A stretch of 64,000 nt of DNA from Acidobacteriota bacterium (GTDB lineage: Bacteria; Acidobacteriota; Thermoanaerobaculia; Multivoradales; Multivoraceae), in the NCBI GenBank assembly GCA_026707325.1, contig JAPOXA010000110.1:57923-121922 (forward strand), read 5' to 3'. Positions 27,524-63,886 of the stretch are shown in pieces. The number at the start of each line of letters is the position of its first letter. The first letter of the stretch is position 1. A program made the translations under genes and the position numbers. Under the pieces are notes generated by a model. It was not told where the DNA came from. It did no database searches and saw nothing but the letters and a program-made list of their open reading frames with translations.

Positions 27524-28039
27524 TCAACTCGCCTTGGCCTTGGAGATCTTGTCCAGGCTGGTGGCAAGCGCCTTCTCGACCAGTTCCTCGGCGCTCTCTT
27601 CGCTGATGTCACGGACGTGGAGCACCTCGCTCACGATGAAGTACCTGGCTTTCTCGTACATCTTCTTCTCGCGAAACGAGAGGCTCTTCTTCTGGCTCAC
27701 GAGACGGAGGTTCTTGAGGACCTCGGCGGCGTCCGTCAACTCACCGGTCCGCATCTTGTCCAGATTCTGCTTGTAGCGACCCTTCCAGTCCTTGTAGACG
27801 TCGATGTTGCCGTCCTCGATCAGAGCGAGAAGATCGTTGATCTCCCGTTCCTTGGCCAGACGTCGGAGACCGACGCGGTCCAGGTTCTCTTCGGGGACCA
27901 TCACCTTGGAGTCGTTCGCCAGCAGGCGCAGGTGGTAGTAGGTCTGCTTCTCACCGCCATCCGGTGCGCTCACCGCGATTCGCTCTACTACACTCACCCC
28001 GTGGTTCGGGTACACGACTTTCTCACCCACTCGGAACAC
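27524..28039 (-). CDS. carD: CarD family transcriptional regulator
   Basis: 'FRVGEKVVYPNHGVSVVERI...YYHLRLLANDSKVMVPEENLDRVGLR' CarD/CdnL RNAP-interaction domain. Confidence 0.93.
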   Translation of the reverse strand: MFRVGEKVVYPNHGVSVVERIAVSAPDGGEKQTYYHLRLLANDSKVMVPEENLDRVGLRRLAKEREINDLLALIEDGNIDVYKDWKGRYKQNLDKMRTGELTDAAEVLKNLRLVSQKKSLSFREKKMYEKARYFIVSEVLHVRDISEESAEELVEKALATSLDKISKAKAS

Positions 28040-28360: not shown

Positions 28361-28446
28361 GCCGGAGTGGCGGAATGGCAGACGCAGGGGACTCAAAATC
28401 CCCCGCCCGCAAGGGCGTGTGGGTTCGACTCCCACCTCCGGCACCA
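28361..28446 (+). tRNA. tRNA-Leu (anticodon CAA), CCA encoded
   Basis: Acceptor GCCGGAG/CTCCGGC, anticodon loop CTCAAAA, long variable arm CGCCCGCAAGGGCG, T arm GTGGGTTCGACTCCCAC, ends ACCA. Confidence 0.95.
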
Positions 28447-28813
28447 CCGCTTCTTGCGTGACGCGTCCCCTGCGGGGACTCGCAAGCATCCTTGCGCCCG
28501 CAAGGGCGTGTGGGTTCGACTCCCACCTCCGGCACCACCGCTTCTTGCGTGACGCGTCCCCTGCGGGGACTCGCAAGCATCCTTGCGCCCGCAAGGGCGT
28601 GTGGGTTCGACTCCCACCTCCGGCACCACCGCTTCCACCGGAACGCGTCCCCTGCGGGGACTCGCAGCATCTCCTGCGCCCGCAAGGGCGTGTGGGTTCG
28701 ACTCCCACCTCCGGCACCACCGCTTCCACCGGAACGCGTCCCCTGCGGGGACTCGCAGCATCTCCTGCGCCCGCAAGGGCGTGTGGGTTCGACTCCCACC
28801 TCCAGCACTACCA
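28447..28813 (+). repeat. Four 91-bp tandem repeats, each carrying a copy of the tRNA-Leu 3' half plus a hairpin spacer
   Basis: 'CGCCCGCAAGGGCGTGTGGGTTCGACTCCCACCTCCGGCACCA' starts at 28404 (in the tRNA), 28495, 28586, 28677 and 28768: period exactly 91 bp. Spacers come in two classes (A,A,B,B). Last copy diverges at its end (CTCCAGCACTACCA). Confidence 0.97.
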
Positions 28814-28830
28814 GGGGCTCGCGCCAGCAA

Positions 28831-30528
28831 CTAGCTGTCGGAGTTGGCGTCGTCGACGAGTTCGATGCCTTCCTGCTCCAGCAGGACGCCGATCGCCCGG
28901 AAATAGGCCAGCAGGGCGCGGCGGTAGCCCGTGATGGCCTCCACTTCGCGGCTGCGGGCCGCCGTCAGATCCTCCTGGATCTCGAGCACCTGGAAGCTGG
29001 TCCAGAGCCCGTTCTCGTAGCGCTTCTGGGCGGCGTCCAGGTTCTTCTCCGCCAGTTCCCGCGACACCCGCGCCGAGTCGATCTGCTTGCCCGCGGTCTC
29101 CACGCCCCTGGCGGCCGTCCGCACCTCCGTGCGGATCGTCAGCATGAGGTCCTGCAGCTCCAGCCGTCCCTGGTCGAGCGCCAGGTCGGCGATCCGGCTT
29201 TGCGCCCGGGCCGAGCGGTTCTGCAGCGGCTTGGACAGGTTGAGGCCCACGTTCCAGCCCTCGAAGACCTGCCCCAGGATCCCGTCGTAGAACTGACCGA
29301 GCGTCGACAGGAAGTCGAGCGAGTCGACCCGGATGTACTCCTCCGGACAAGGCTCGAACAGATCGGCAATGCTGGGCGGACCGGGCCGCTCACAGACGGT
29401 ACGGTCACCGCCCAGTGCGTTCCGGCCGTAGCTCACGCTCAGGTTCAGGTCGGGCTTGCGCTGGTTGCGGAGAAAGGTGGAGTCGATCTCCAGCGTTTCG
29501 ATCCGCAGTTCCTGGCGATCGATCTCCACCCGCTTGTTGAGCGCCGAACTCAGCGACGCCTCCAGATCAATGGCGACCCGTGAGATCTCGGGCGATGTCA
29601 TCGGAACGATCTCCAGGTCCCAGAAAGTCCGCTCGTCCAGGTTCAGCAGTCGCCGCAGCTCATCCGCCGCGTCCTGAATCTGCGCCTGGACCCGGATGAT
29701 CTCCTCCTCGCGGGTCGCGATGCCCGCTTCGCTCTGAACGAGTTCCAGCGGCGCCAGGGTACCCACCTCGATCTGGATGCGGTTCATCTCGTGCAGCTCG
29801 CGGGCCAGCGCCAGACTCTCCTCCGCCACCTTGAGCTGTTCCAGGCCTTCGACCAGGGCCCAGTAGCCGTTGGCCACGGTCTGCACCGTGTCAATGACCT
29901 GAACTGCGAGATCTCCCATGCTGATGTCGCTGTTCAGCCGGGCGACGGCCAGGTTCCGCTCGGTGATCCGCTTTCCCCGGTTCCGCAGCAGCGGCTGGTC
30001 GAAGGCGAACTGCAGGCTGGACCGCAGGCTCGGGTTGATGTCCGAGAACCGCGAGTTCGATTCGAACCGGCTGTTCTGCCAGTTGATCGAGAACGTACCA
30101 CCCGACGAAACCGGCTGCTGGAGTTCGACGTTCGCCGTCATCGTCTCGTTCTCGGTGACCAGGGCGCCGTCAAGTTGCGAGGCCGAGGGCCGGCTGTCGC
30201 TGTTGACGCTGGTGTTGACTCCGAGCACCGTGTCGTAGATGCCGTACGCCTGGTTGATCTGGAACAGCGACTGGGAGCGCTGGTAGCGCTGGACCAGCAG
30301 TCCGAGGTTGTTCTGCAGGGCGATCGCGACCGCCTGGTCCAGTTCAAGCCGGAGTTGCCCGTCGGCGATGTCCAGATCCGGTGCGATCGGCTCGGTGATC
30401 CACGTCGAACCGACCTGCACCTGCCCCGCTGCCGGGGGAGCCCAGACGGCGGCCGGGACGAGGACAGTGCAGAGAGCGACGATCGGCGCTGCGGACTTGC
30501 GGACGCTCTGCTTTGGGAACAGGTTCAT
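28831..30528 (-). CDS. TolC-family outer membrane efflux protein
   Basis: Signal peptide plus 'LELDQAVAIALQNNLGLLVQRYQRSQSLFQINQAYGIYD...GWNVGLNLSKPLQNRSARAQSRIADLALDQGRLELQDL'. Confidence 0.9.
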   Translation of the reverse strand: MNLFPKQSVRKSAAPIVALCTVLVPAAVWAPPAAGQVQVGSTWITEPIAPDLDIADGQLRLELDQAVAIALQNNLGLLVQRYQRSQSLFQINQAYGIYDTVLGVNTSVNSDSRPSASQLDGALVTENETMTANVELQQPVSSGGTFSINWQNSRFESNSRFSDINPSLRSSLQFAFDQPLLRNRGKRITERNLAVARLNSDISMGDLAVQVIDTVQTVANGYWALVEGLEQLKVAEESLALARELHEMNRIQIEVGTLAPLELVQSEAGIATREEEIIRVQAQIQDAADELRRLLNLDERTFWDLEIVPMTSPEISRVAIDLEASLSSALNKRVEIDRQELRIETLEIDSTFLRNQRKPDLNLSVSYGRNALGGDRTVCERPGPPSIADLFEPCPEEYIRVDSLDFLSTLGQFYDGILGQVFEGWNVGLNLSKPLQNRSARAQSRIADLALDQGRLELQDLMLTIRTEVRTAARGVETAGKQIDSARVSRELAEKNLDAAQKRYENGLWTSFQVLEIQEDLTAARSREVEAITGYRRALLAYFRAIGVLLEQEGIELVDDANSDS

Positions 30529-30613
30529 CGGGCTGTGTTCCTTCCTTCGACGGCGCCCTGACCGCAACGGGCACGGCGCGTCGTGTCTTTCCTCTTTGAC
30601 GCGAGAGGCGCGA

Positions 30614-30629
30614 GGTTGTTTCAACAACC
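30614..30629. promoter_or_regulatory. Operator-like palindrome upstream of the tolC-family gene
   Basis: GGTTGTT-TC-AACAACC, perfect 7-2-7 inverted repeat about 86 bp upstream of the ATG. Confidence 0.5.
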
Positions 30630-40216: not shown

Positions 40217-40304
40217 TGGTGCCGGAGGCGGGATTCGAACCCGCACGCCCTCAGAGGGACGGGGGATTTTAAGTCCCCTGCGTCTGCCGTTTCGCCACTC
40301 CGGC
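40217..40304 (-). tRNA. tRNA-Leu (anticodon UAA), CCA encoded
   Basis: Minus strand GCCGGAG...GGGGACTTAAAATCCCC...GTGCGGGTTCGAATCCCGC...CTCCGGCACCA. Confidence 0.95.
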
Positions 40305-43891: not shown

Positions 43892-46078
43892 ATGAGACAC
43901 CTGCTTCCGATCAGCGTCCTCGTGCCGCCGCTCGTCCTTGCCGCATCCGCCGTCTGGGCAGCGAATACTCCTGGCCAGGAACAGGCGGAGGGCCTCACGG
44001 GCGTCTACAGTTTCGTCGGCGCGCTGGACGGAGACGCGACCCTGTTCGCGGCCCGTTCGGGCGCTCAGAGCGAACTTGAACTCCACTTGCCGATTCTGCG
44101 AGGCGACCGGATCTGGACGACGCCGAGCGCGCGACTCGCGGTCCTCATGTCGGACCGTTCGATCCTGGCCCTGGACCACGACTCGGAGATCACTCTTGAA
44201 CGGATCGCCGGATCGCCGGACGGCGAAGACCAGGACTCGCTCTACGTCCTGCACCGGGGCCGGCTGAGCCTGGAGGTCGAAAGTCGCCTTCTCGAATCGG
44301 AGTTGCCGGTCGTGGACACAGCCAACGCCAGGGTCTACGTGAAGCAGGACGGCCGCTACCAGATTCACAGCGACGGAAGCCGCTGGACCGAGGTGACGGT
44401 TCTCTCCGGATTCGCGGAAGTCGTGACGCAGCGGGGATCGGTGATCGTCCGCGGCGGCGAGACGCTCGTGGCCAACGGTCTCGACAATCCCTGGATCGAG
44501 CTCCAGAGCGGCGCAGGGGCGGCTGCTGCCGCGCTCGATGACTGGACGGAAGGCCATCGGGCCGGTCTCGTGGCCTATGCCGCCGTCGATGCGGGCGGTT
44601 ACCGCGACGCGCTGGGCGCGCATGGCGAGTGGGTCGAGGTCGACGATCGACGGGCCTGGAAGCCGCGCGTCGAGCAGAACTGGCAGCCCTACAGCCGGGG
44701 CCGGTGGACGGACAGTCCGGCCGGGCTCTACTGGGTGGCTCGGGATCCCTGGGGTCCGCTCACCTACCATTACGGCAGTTGGAACAGGCATCCGGCCTGG
44801 GGGTGGCTCTGGTTCCCGGGTCTGAGGTACGCCCCCAGCCACGTCTACTGGTACTGGGGGCCGTCCTACGTCGGCTGGATTCCGCGCGGCTACTACCAGC
44901 ACTACTACCGGGGTCTGGGCTACGGTCTCCGTTTCGGGCTCTACGGCTGGGCCGGCGGTTACTGGGATCCGTTCAACACCTGGATCTTCTGCCCGACCGG
45001 TTACTTCGGCTACGGTCGTGGCTACACCTACGGCCGTTCCCTCCGGCGCCACCATCCCAAACTCGAACGCGGCATCATCACGACGGACACCCGCGGCATC
45101 GACCGCCGGAACTGGCGCGACCCGGCAGCGGCACAGCGAGTCCTGATCAAGCGGCGCGGCGGACTGGACGAGAGCGAACTCCCGAACGCCGACAGCTTCG
45201 TGGCGCGACGTCCCGACCTCGATCCCTCGTTCCGCGGCGAGATCAGGCGTAGCGATGGCGACCCTGCCGTCGTGTCCGTGCGGCGCGCGCGGCCTTCCGG
45301 GGACAGGTCCGGGGTGACGAGCGTCACGGCCGGTGGCGTCCGGGCGGCGCCCTCGAGCCGGGCGACCCGGGCCGGCGTGGTCCGGGACGGCGGTACGAAC
45401 GTCGGGATCCGGCGAGCCGCTCCGGTTCCTGCGACCGAGGACGACGGTTCCGCGAAGCCGAGCGTGTCCGTCAAGGCAGCGCCAGCGAGCCCTGGCGCCG
45501 CGCCTGCACCGAGCCGGCGGCCGACGGCCGGTCGACGCGTGCTGGACGCCATTCGGAGCCGGGACGGCGGTTCGAGTCCCACACGGGTGCGATCGACGCC
45601 CCGGAGTTCAACGCCCACGACGGCGCCTCCCACGCGGGTGCGGTCGACGCCGCGGAGTTCGACGCCCAGGGCGGCGCCTCCCACGAGGGTCCGGTCCACG
45701 CCGCGGAGTTCGACGCCCAGGGCGGCGCCGCCCACGAGGGTCCGGTCCACGCCGCGGAGTTCGACGCCCAGGGCGGCGCCTCCCACGAGGGTCCGGTCCA
45801 CGCCGCGGAGTTCGACGCCCAGGGCGGCGCCGCCCACGCGGGTCCGGTCGACACCGCGAGCCTCTACCCCCAGGTCGTCCTCGCGGCCGGCACGGGTGCG
45901 GTCGTCCAGCCCAAGGAGTTCGTCGCCGCGGTCTTCCTCGCCGCCGAGGAGCTACTCTCCTCCCTCGAGTTCAAGTCCGTCGAGCTACTCGCCGCCGCCC
46001 TCTTCCTCGCCCTCTTCTTCCCCCTCCTCCCCGCCGCGTTCAGGCGGCGGCGGACGGACGCCGCCGTTCGCGCCCTGA
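43892..46078 (+). CDS. FecR-like plus DUF6600-like secreted protein with Arg/Ser/Thr/Pro-rich repetitive C-terminus
   Basis: Signal peptide, FecR-like 'LRGDRIWTTPSARLAVLMSDRSILALDHDSEITLE', W/Y/G-rich block 'YWVARDPWGPLTYHYGSWNRHPAWGWLWFPGLRYAPSHVYWYWGPSYVGWIPRG', repetitive tail. Confidence 0.75.
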   Translation: MRHLLPISVLVPPLVLAASAVWAANTPGQEQAEGLTGVYSFVGALDGDATLFAARSGAQSELELHLPILRGDRIWTTPSARLAVLMSDRSILALDHDSEITLERIAGSPDGEDQDSLYVLHRGRLSLEVESRLLESELPVVDTANARVYVKQDGRYQIHSDGSRWTEVTVLSGFAEVVTQRGSVIVRGGETLVANGLDNPWIELQSGAGAAAAALDDWTEGHRAGLVAYAAVDAGGYRDALGAHGEWVEVDDRRAWKPRVEQNWQPYSRGRWTDSPAGLYWVARDPWGPLTYHYGSWNRHPAWGWLWFPGLRYAPSHVYWYWGPSYVGWIPRGYYQHYYRGLGYGLRFGLYGWAGGYWDPFNTWIFCPTGYFGYGRGYTYGRSLRRHHPKLERGIITTDTRGIDRRNWRDPAAAQRVLIKRRGGLDESELPNADSFVARRPDLDPSFRGEIRRSDGDPAVVSVRRARPSGDRSGVTSVTAGGVRAAPSSRATRAGVVRDGGTNVGIRRAAPVPATEDDGSAKPSVSVKAAPASPGAAPAPSRRPTAGRRVLDAIRSRDGGSSPTRVRSTPRSSTPTTAPPTRVRSTPRSSTPRAAPPTRVRSTPRSSTPRAAPPTRVRSTPRSSTPRAAPPTRVRSTPRSSTPRAAPPTRVRSTPRASTPRSSSRPARVRSSSPRSSSPRSSSPPRSYSPPSSSSPSSYSPPPSSSPSSSPSSPPRSGGGGRTPPFAP
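45584..45838 (+). repeat. Five in-frame 51-bp tandem repeats (RVRSTPRSSTPRAAPPT), plus a degenerate sixth
   Basis: Unit CGGGTGCGGTCGACGCCGCGGAGTTCGACGCCCAGGGCGGCGCCTCCCACG repeated at 45584, 45635, 45686, 45737 and 45788. Confidence 0.93.
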
Positions 46079-63416: not shown

Positions 63417-63472
63417 GCGGACAGGGCCGTCAGAACCAGGGTGCCCATCAGGAGCAGGGTGCAAGGTCAAGT

Positions 63473-63886
63473 GCCGGAGGACCTCGTAAGCCGGATTCTG
63501 TTCGTCCCACGGCCCGAAGGCTTCGGGAGGCGGCCATTCATCTATGCGACCTACCCGGAGAACGTCCCGCGCCGCGAACAGCCCGGAACCGGGACGGACA
63601 GCCCGATCCGCTCTCCCTATTTGGTCTTGCTCCACATGGGGTTTGCCATCGCCTCGGACCGTCGCCGGCCGAGCGGTGCGCTCTTACCGCACCGTTTCAC
63701 CCTTGCCTGCCCTCTCCCTCGGGATCCCCTGGGACCCCGAAGATCCGGGACCGGCGGTCTGCTCTCTGCTGCACTTTCCGTCGCGTCACCGCGCCTTGCC
63801 GTTAGCAAGCATGCCGTCCGTTGGAGTCCGGACTTTCCTCCACCGGCGGTTCCCCGCCGGCAGCGACCGCGTCCGGCCCTCCGGCG
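63473..63886 (-). ncRNA. rnpB: RNase P RNA (bacterial class A-like)
   Basis: Minus strand contains 'GGAGGAAAGTCCGGACTCC', 'GACGGAAAGTGCAGCAGAGAGCAGACCGCC', 'AAGGGTGAAACGGTGCGGTAAGAGCGCACCG', 'GGCAAACCCCATGTGGAGCAAGACCAAATAGGG', 'GAACAGAATCCGGCTTACGAGG'; ends pair as P1 (GCCGGAGGGCC / GGTCCTCCGGC). Exact ends approximate. Confidence 0.95.

Follow-up and report, generated by a model that had tools for sequence, protein, structure and literature searches.

Tandem repeats that stand directly behind a tRNA gene and carry part of it are known from the rtT repeats of the Escherichia coli tyrT locus, where units of ~178 bp each hold a ~19-nt piece of tRNA-Tyr, at this one tRNA. Tandem tRNA duplications that have decayed to pseudogenes also leave tRNA-derived tandem copies. 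Displaced tRNA 3' fragments are otherwise described as attR remnants, in which an intact tRNA is followed downstream by a 3' fragment in the same orientation (PMC4383910, PMC9897764). Islander discards tRNA-fragment pairs that are under 2 kb apart (PMC4383910). A functional 3' trailer of a tRNA transcript has been reported in the 3'ETS-leuZ of the E. coli glyW-cysT-leuZ operon, which acts as a sponge (PMC6191717). Among open-access papers, the only literature that we found on tRNA-half arrays is that on integration scars. Arrays such as the one described here may have gone unreported because island finders drop pairs less than 2 kb apart and tRNA finders skip the repeat units.

The array lies in a 64,000-nt stretch of DNA (the window) from a metagenome-assembled genome (MAG) of an Acidobacteriota bacterium (G000; 5.1 Mb in 209 contigs, in which copy number is less certain than structure). 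It consists of an intact tRNA-Leu(CAA) gene and four further units, each ending in a copy of the tRNA 3' half (Table 1). An earlier note had named rtT as the nearest parallel, and place and orientation agree with this: both are co-directional tandem repeats directly 3' of a tRNA, each with a tRNA 3' end. Size, tRNA and structure do not agree. The units here are 84-101 bp long, contain at least 43 nt of tRNA and an antisense anticodon hairpin, and occur at six Leu, Ser and SeC tRNAs, with no homology to rtT in size or sequence. Unlike attR fragments, they are separated by only ~45 bp with no intervening element, have an altered anticodon loop and carry a hairpin made from the local tRNA; unlike decayed tRNA duplications, they have no 5' acceptor strand or D arm. 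The operon equivalent to glyW-cysT-leuZ is among the unit-bearing loci of the genus, but the 3'ETS-leuZ is not described as a tRNA-half repeat in PMC6191717.

Table 1. The tRNA-Leu(CAA) array and neighbouring features, in window coordinates.
Feature	Position	Strand	Evidence or remark
CarD-family regulator gene, upstream, divergent, outside array	27524..28039	-	Pfam PF02559/PF21095
tRNA-Leu(CAA), intact, encoded CCA	28361..28446	+	ARAGORN; Rfam RF00005, 56.8 bits
Unit 1, 91 bp: linker, hairpin H1, insert, exact 43-nt tRNA 3' half	28447..28537	+	
H1 of unit 1, GTCCCC-TGC-GGGGAC	28465..28479	+	further copies 28556-28570, 28647-28661, 28738-28752
tRNA 3' half, copy 1 (variable arm, T arm, acceptor 3' strand, CCA)	28495..28537	+	
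tRNA 3' half, later copies	28586-28628, 28677-28719, 28768-28810	+	
Unit 2, no differences from unit 1	28538..28628	+	
Unit 3, second spacer type, 43-nt half exact	28629..28719	+	
Unit 4, spacer like unit 3, half with 2 mismatches (CTCCAGCACTA)	28720..28810	+	
Tail CCAGGGGCTCGCGCCAGC, array to next gene	28811..28830	+	L001 compared with L020
Outer membrane efflux (TolC/OEP) gene, convergent with array	28831..30627	-	Pfam PF02321
tRNA-Leu(UAA), Gly-Cys-Leu operon; unit-bearing in four relatives, unit-less here	40217..40304	-	

Both the intact tRNA-Leu(CAA) and the four positions at which its 43-nt half recurs, claimed in the earlier note, were confirmed. That note had also described the repeats as four exact 91-bp copies. 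The period of 91 bp holds, as TRF finds one array of this period (28404-28812, 4.5 copies, 96% match, score 688, far beyond chance). The exactness does not, since the units fall into two variants (1 = 2 and 3 = 4) that are ~91% alike and the half of unit 4 reads CTCCAGCACTA where the others read CTCCGGCACCA. No acceptor 5' strand or 5' half was found in the units by a 5'-half scan, in agreement with the earlier claim; ARAGORN and Rfam call the first tRNA only, leaving the units uncalled as tRNA genes, and no Rfam family reaches its gathering threshold on the units. We found no intrinsic terminator on the plus strand, and no promoter-like or terminator-like site on the array strand. The tail behind unit 4 is probably the relic of one more unit; compare the Leu(CAA) unit of G016, which is truncated inside the spacer. 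The TolC/OEP gene also neighbours the array locus in most relatives. Elsewhere in the window are a 51-bp tandem repeat (45577-45858, 5.5 copies, 93% match) and a class A bacterial RNase P RNA (63471-63883, 225 bits).

All units follow a common plan, in which a free linker is followed by a hairpin (H1), usually a short insert, and a near-perfect tRNA 3' half. The spacer is not unrelated or foreign sequence. Between the ~18-nt linker and the 43-nt half, the Leu(CAA) units contain GTCCCCTGC joined to GGGGACTC, the first part being tRNA nt GCAGGGGAC in reverse complement and the second repeating the anticodon 5' strand directly as far as nt 34. This inverted-direct pair folds into a hairpin with a fully paired 6-bp stem and a TGC loop, so that H1 is built from the local tRNA and hides the copied anticodon 5' strand. 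The insert, for example GCAGCATCTCCTG, takes the place of the remainder of the anticodon loop in the Leu(CAA) units. Unit length is 87-94 bp at Leu(CAA) and 84-101 bp across tRNAs, and the distance from CCA to the half is ~30-60 bp. The arms of H1 follow each tRNA's own anticodon strand (GTCCCC/GGGGAC, GTCCTC/GAGGAC, GACCGC/GCGGTC at SeC, GACCGGTGC/CCGGTC at Ser(UGA), and CTAGCGC/GCTACAC); at Leu(UAA) of G018, for instance, H1 is GTCCTC-TGC-GAGGAC and the anticodon stem of the tRNA is GAGGA. At Ser(CGA) a hairpin over the same strand is closed by 5' arms that differ by clade (GGCCGC, GAGACC, GCCC). The anticodon is replaced in the units of five of the six tRNAs, while the Leu(UAG) unit has H1 and retains the anticodon loop. 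Synthetases of serine- and leucine-type tRNAs largely ignore the anticodon, which matches the anticodon being the part replaced in most units. The earlier note had overlooked both the antisense anticodon hairpin and the units at other tRNAs.

We compared 21 genomes of this Acidobacteriota genus, including the source genome, and found intact units 3' of tRNA-Leu(CAA) in 14 of them, with 1-4 units per genome. G000 has four; G014, G017 and G010 have three, with an N gap in one; G002 and G013 have two; G003, G004, G009, G011, G012, G018 and G020 have one; and G005, with an N gap, has at least one. Six of the 21 genomes have no Leu(CAA) unit (G001, G006, G007, G008, G015, G019). With G016 and its truncated unit, seven genomes lack an intact unit at this tRNA, where the element is thus dispensable. 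The earlier note would have counted an array confined to a single strain, with copy number varying at random, as a refutation; what we found instead are intact units in two thirds of the congeneric genomes and at five other tRNAs. In a whole-genome search of the 21 genomes, matches to the H1 pattern lie nearly all in tRNA-Leu arrays, with one exception (G003:C31). A search of 85,462 species for the H1 plus T-arm pattern gave 12 contigs, all with this type of locus and all matching this genus. A tiny mobile element of constant sequence was rejected on account of these 12 contigs from a single genus, the absence of the H1 pattern from viral contigs, and an H1 that follows the local tRNA. The named relatives are Holophagales and Thermoanaerobaculia MAGs of the Acidobacteriota, and we read many isolate names as pointing to a sponge origin.

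Units at other tRNAs were sought among all tRNAs of G000, G009 and G018 and selected tRNAs of the other genomes. They occur at Leu(UAA) in four species, at SeC in seven species plus one truncated, at Ser(CGA) in six species plus truncated ones, at Ser(UGA) in two species plus truncated ones, and at Leu(UAG) in one genome (G020). No units were found at Leu(CAG), Leu(GAG), Ser(GGA), Ser(GCU), Tyr or the class I tRNAs scanned. Six of the 11 tRNAs with a long variable arm have units, versus none of the ~33 others (hypergeometric probability ~7e-5, in a test chosen after the data were seen). A rule of exactly YNA anticodons (CAA, UAA, CGA, UGA, UCA) was dropped once the Leu(UAG) unit was found in G020; the features that so far remain common are the long variable arm and a pyrimidine at nt 34. 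The Ser(CGA) units (L209-L214) lie between the tRNA and rpmH, in the rpmH leader, where they could also affect the expression of ribosomal protein L34. A different kind of copy stands directly 3' of tRNA-Arg(CCU) in G000:C161 (L102) and G018:C44 (L319), namely a degenerate full-length tRNA-like copy with changed acceptor 5' strand and anticodon loop.

In a genus tree made from the rpmH-rnpA region with midpoint rooting, one side of the deepest split holds G006, G008, G012, G014, G015, G019 and G020. Units at Leu(CAA), Leu(UAA), SeC and Ser(CGA) are present on both sides, so that the units are most simply ancestral to the genus and repeatedly lost; independent parallel gains are possible. The precise absences would arise by deletion through recombination between identical halves, which is supported by relics such as CACAAGTCGCTGGT 3' of SeC in G019.

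Constraint was measured by parsimony on this tree with one Leu(CAA) unit from each of 13 species. The linker shows 57 changes over 18 sites (3.1 per site). The H1 stem shows none over 12 positions, where ~38 would be expected at the linker rate, while its loop shows 2 and the 12-nt insert 18. In the half, the variable-arm stem is unchanged over 10 positions and the 4-nt variable loop has 16 changes (over 4.3 sites); the T arm, acceptor strand and CCA together have 2 changes over 29 nt (0.07 per site). The script anchors demanded the stem sequences, a demand that excluded no recognised intact unit with readable sequence; similarity was the criterion by which units were recognised, so that the estimate is drawn from survivors and under-counts decayed units. 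Mutated units are found at the ends of arrays (G000 unit 4 and G017 unit 3, in the T arm or CCA), and the Ser unit of G015 is changed in the T loop. The variable loop of the unit differs from that of its own tRNA in 7 of the 13 species, and T arm and acceptor are identical, so that long conversion tracts fail to explain the half. Nor can conversion by the tRNA maintain the 5' arm of H1, because the arm is absent from the tRNA in that orientation. Simple pseudogene decay does not fit either, since it would leave no contrast between a constrained H1 and T arm and a free linker. An unvarying stem that carries a freely varying loop argues for selection on RNA structure. The role at the RNA level that the earlier note had inferred gains support from these near-fixed stems, T arm, acceptor strand and CCA beside a free linker and loop, although its interpretation as a whole is only partly borne out; EF-Tu binding, which it had also put forward, is disfavoured, as the unit itself lacks an acceptor 5' strand.

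We tentatively read the units as a lineage-specific, structured 3'-trailer RNA element of long-variable-arm tRNA genes that acts in cis on the folding or maturation of the pre-tRNA, and regard this as possible rather than probable. With its recurrence behind six tRNA genes and its nearly invariant parts, the element looks like one that has been kept and has escaped description, rather than a random duplication. The units stand directly 3' of the tRNA, in the position of the 3' trailer of a putative joint transcript. If transcription runs through them, the element would be co-transcribed with the tRNA and would work in cis. The 5' arm of H1 is complementary to tRNA nt ~23-32; a conserved partner for the acceptor 3' strand was not found within the unit, and the only full complement found is the upstream tRNA 5' end. 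The trailer might in this way offer the tRNA 5' half a rival partner and delay or gate end processing by exchange of acceptor strands, and recombination between identical halves would raise or lower the number of units.

Equilibrium folding bears on this exchange. The 5' acceptor strand of the tRNA pairs with the 3' strand of the unit at a probability of 0.84-0.99 in all nine tRNA-unit pairs, and before the unit half is included native pairing is at least 0.74 in six of the nine. The exchange is equally probable with a scrambled spacer, and was therefore rejected as the reason for the spacer and H1; it could explain the conserved half only. An insulating role, in which H1 and the altered anticodon strand guard the fold of the tRNA, was also rejected, as the loss of native pairing caused by natural units is similar to that caused by scrambled controls, and in several cases larger. 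In cells, tRNAs fold during transcription, and kinetics may prevent the swap. A more specific form of the trailer reading seems to us rather unlikely: that tRNA 3'-half copies with an antisense anticodon hairpin are cis maturation switches for Leu, Ser and SeC tRNAs, in which the half competes for the 5' acceptor strand and the number of units sets the output of mature tRNA or of a larger tRNA-like RNA that extends to the CCA of a unit. If this is true, the units would represent a new class of regulatory RNA at tRNA genes.

The units could instead be integration scars, left where a tyrosine integrase inserted at the anticodon or 3' half, the new half restored the tRNA, the old half (attR) was displaced downstream, the element was lost down to ~45 bp and the halves recombined into tandem copies. 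tRNA 3' fragments found 3' of tRNA genes are mostly derived from integration (PMC9897764, PMC4383910), and the displaced terminal tRNA fragment, downstream and in the same orientation, is what we see here. Another family of the order has tandem 1-4 kb segments bounded by tRNA-SeC 3' parts that begin in the anticodon loop, and the distal SeC half of G008 and G005 has a variable-arm allele unlike that of the intact tRNA, the G008 allele being that of the tRNA in its sister G015. However, none of the units has cargo or an integrase inserted between tRNA and half. Most units match the tRNA only from the variable arm onwards and have a changed anticodon loop, whereas the true att copies of the order keep the loop. 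The conserved element end of the SeC arrays is missing from G000 and G018, and the spacer is made from the local tRNA, with no element end shared across targets and with H1 under constraint. We consider a scar unlikely.

Also unlikely is a neutral by-product without function, in which fold-back template switching and tandem duplication produce an inverted anticodon-strand copy and a 3' copy, and recombination keeps the halves alike. Identical adjacent units (1 = 2 and 3 = 4 in G000, 1 = 2 = 3 in G014), variable copy number, truncated relics and precise absences all suit such a process, as do other direct and inverted copies of tRNA 3' ends in the order and the degenerate tRNA-Arg(CCU) copy of G000 and G018. 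Against it, the H1 stem stayed fixed across 13 species in which each linker site changed about three times on average, the H1 5' arm is beyond the reach of conversion, and one plan recurs at six tRNAs of a single structural class (6/11 vs 0/~33, ~7e-5).

More doubtful still is that the units yield trans-acting RNAs of ~43-91 nt, serving as sponge or decoy for tRNA 5' halves, for small RNAs, or for nucleases that attack long-variable-arm tRNAs. The operon equivalent to E. coli glyW-cysT-leuZ (Gly-Cys-Leu(UAA)) is unit-bearing in four relatives, the conserved antisense parts (H1 5' arm and acceptor 3' strand) complement the tRNA 5' half, and variable dosage suits a decoy; a self-closing H1, however, would compete with pairing in trans. 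An artefact of short-read metagenome assembly is very improbable and already largely refuted: N gaps do lie within the corresponding arrays of three genomes (G005, G010 and, at tRNA-SeC, G018) and make short-read copy numbers uncertain, but the array was recovered independently in many MAGs from several projects with species-specific linkers, once on a 3.9-Mb contig with 1713x coverage according to the contig name.

Fragments of tRNA 3' ends in bacteria are normally taken as dead attachment-site scars; here they form a repeated, structurally constrained module that is limited to long-variable-arm tRNAs. If the trailer element is functional, tRNA trailers hold a class of regulatory elements that tRNA finders and island finders alike have missed. 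If it is not, the units are the trace of a mutational process that places a copy of the tRNA's antisense strand beside it, at the same position, in six genes.

Related structures occur elsewhere in the order. In another family, tRNA-SeC is followed by chains of 1-4 kb segments that encode protein kinases, PQQ and WD40-like proteins and an rve transposase (L293 and L294, G046:C26:1-21400; L295 and L296, G033; L297, G075; L301 and L308, G071; L302, G040). The segments end in a conserved ~45-nt site (CAGTGGTTACCAGTTGCCGACAGTTGTCGTCAGTTGGATCCCGCCAA) joined to the 3' part of tRNA-SeC, from anticodon loop to CCA, and in G046 all seven copies of this site fall within the single SeC array. These chains look like an integron-like cassette array with the tRNA half as recombination site. 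Att-like 3' parts of tRNA-Ser(UGA) that begin in the anticodon loop and have a related CAGTTG-rich end in front of them were found at L303 and L309 (G040) and L304 (G025). REP-like palindromes lie 3' of tRNA-SeC and tRNA-Leu(CAA) at L347 (G021), L264 (G025), L299 (G059), L311 (G024) and L257 (G076); their arms repeat the T arm and acceptor end of the local tRNA in inverted and direct orientation, for example GCATGGGAAGTCGG...GGCGATTCCCATGC.
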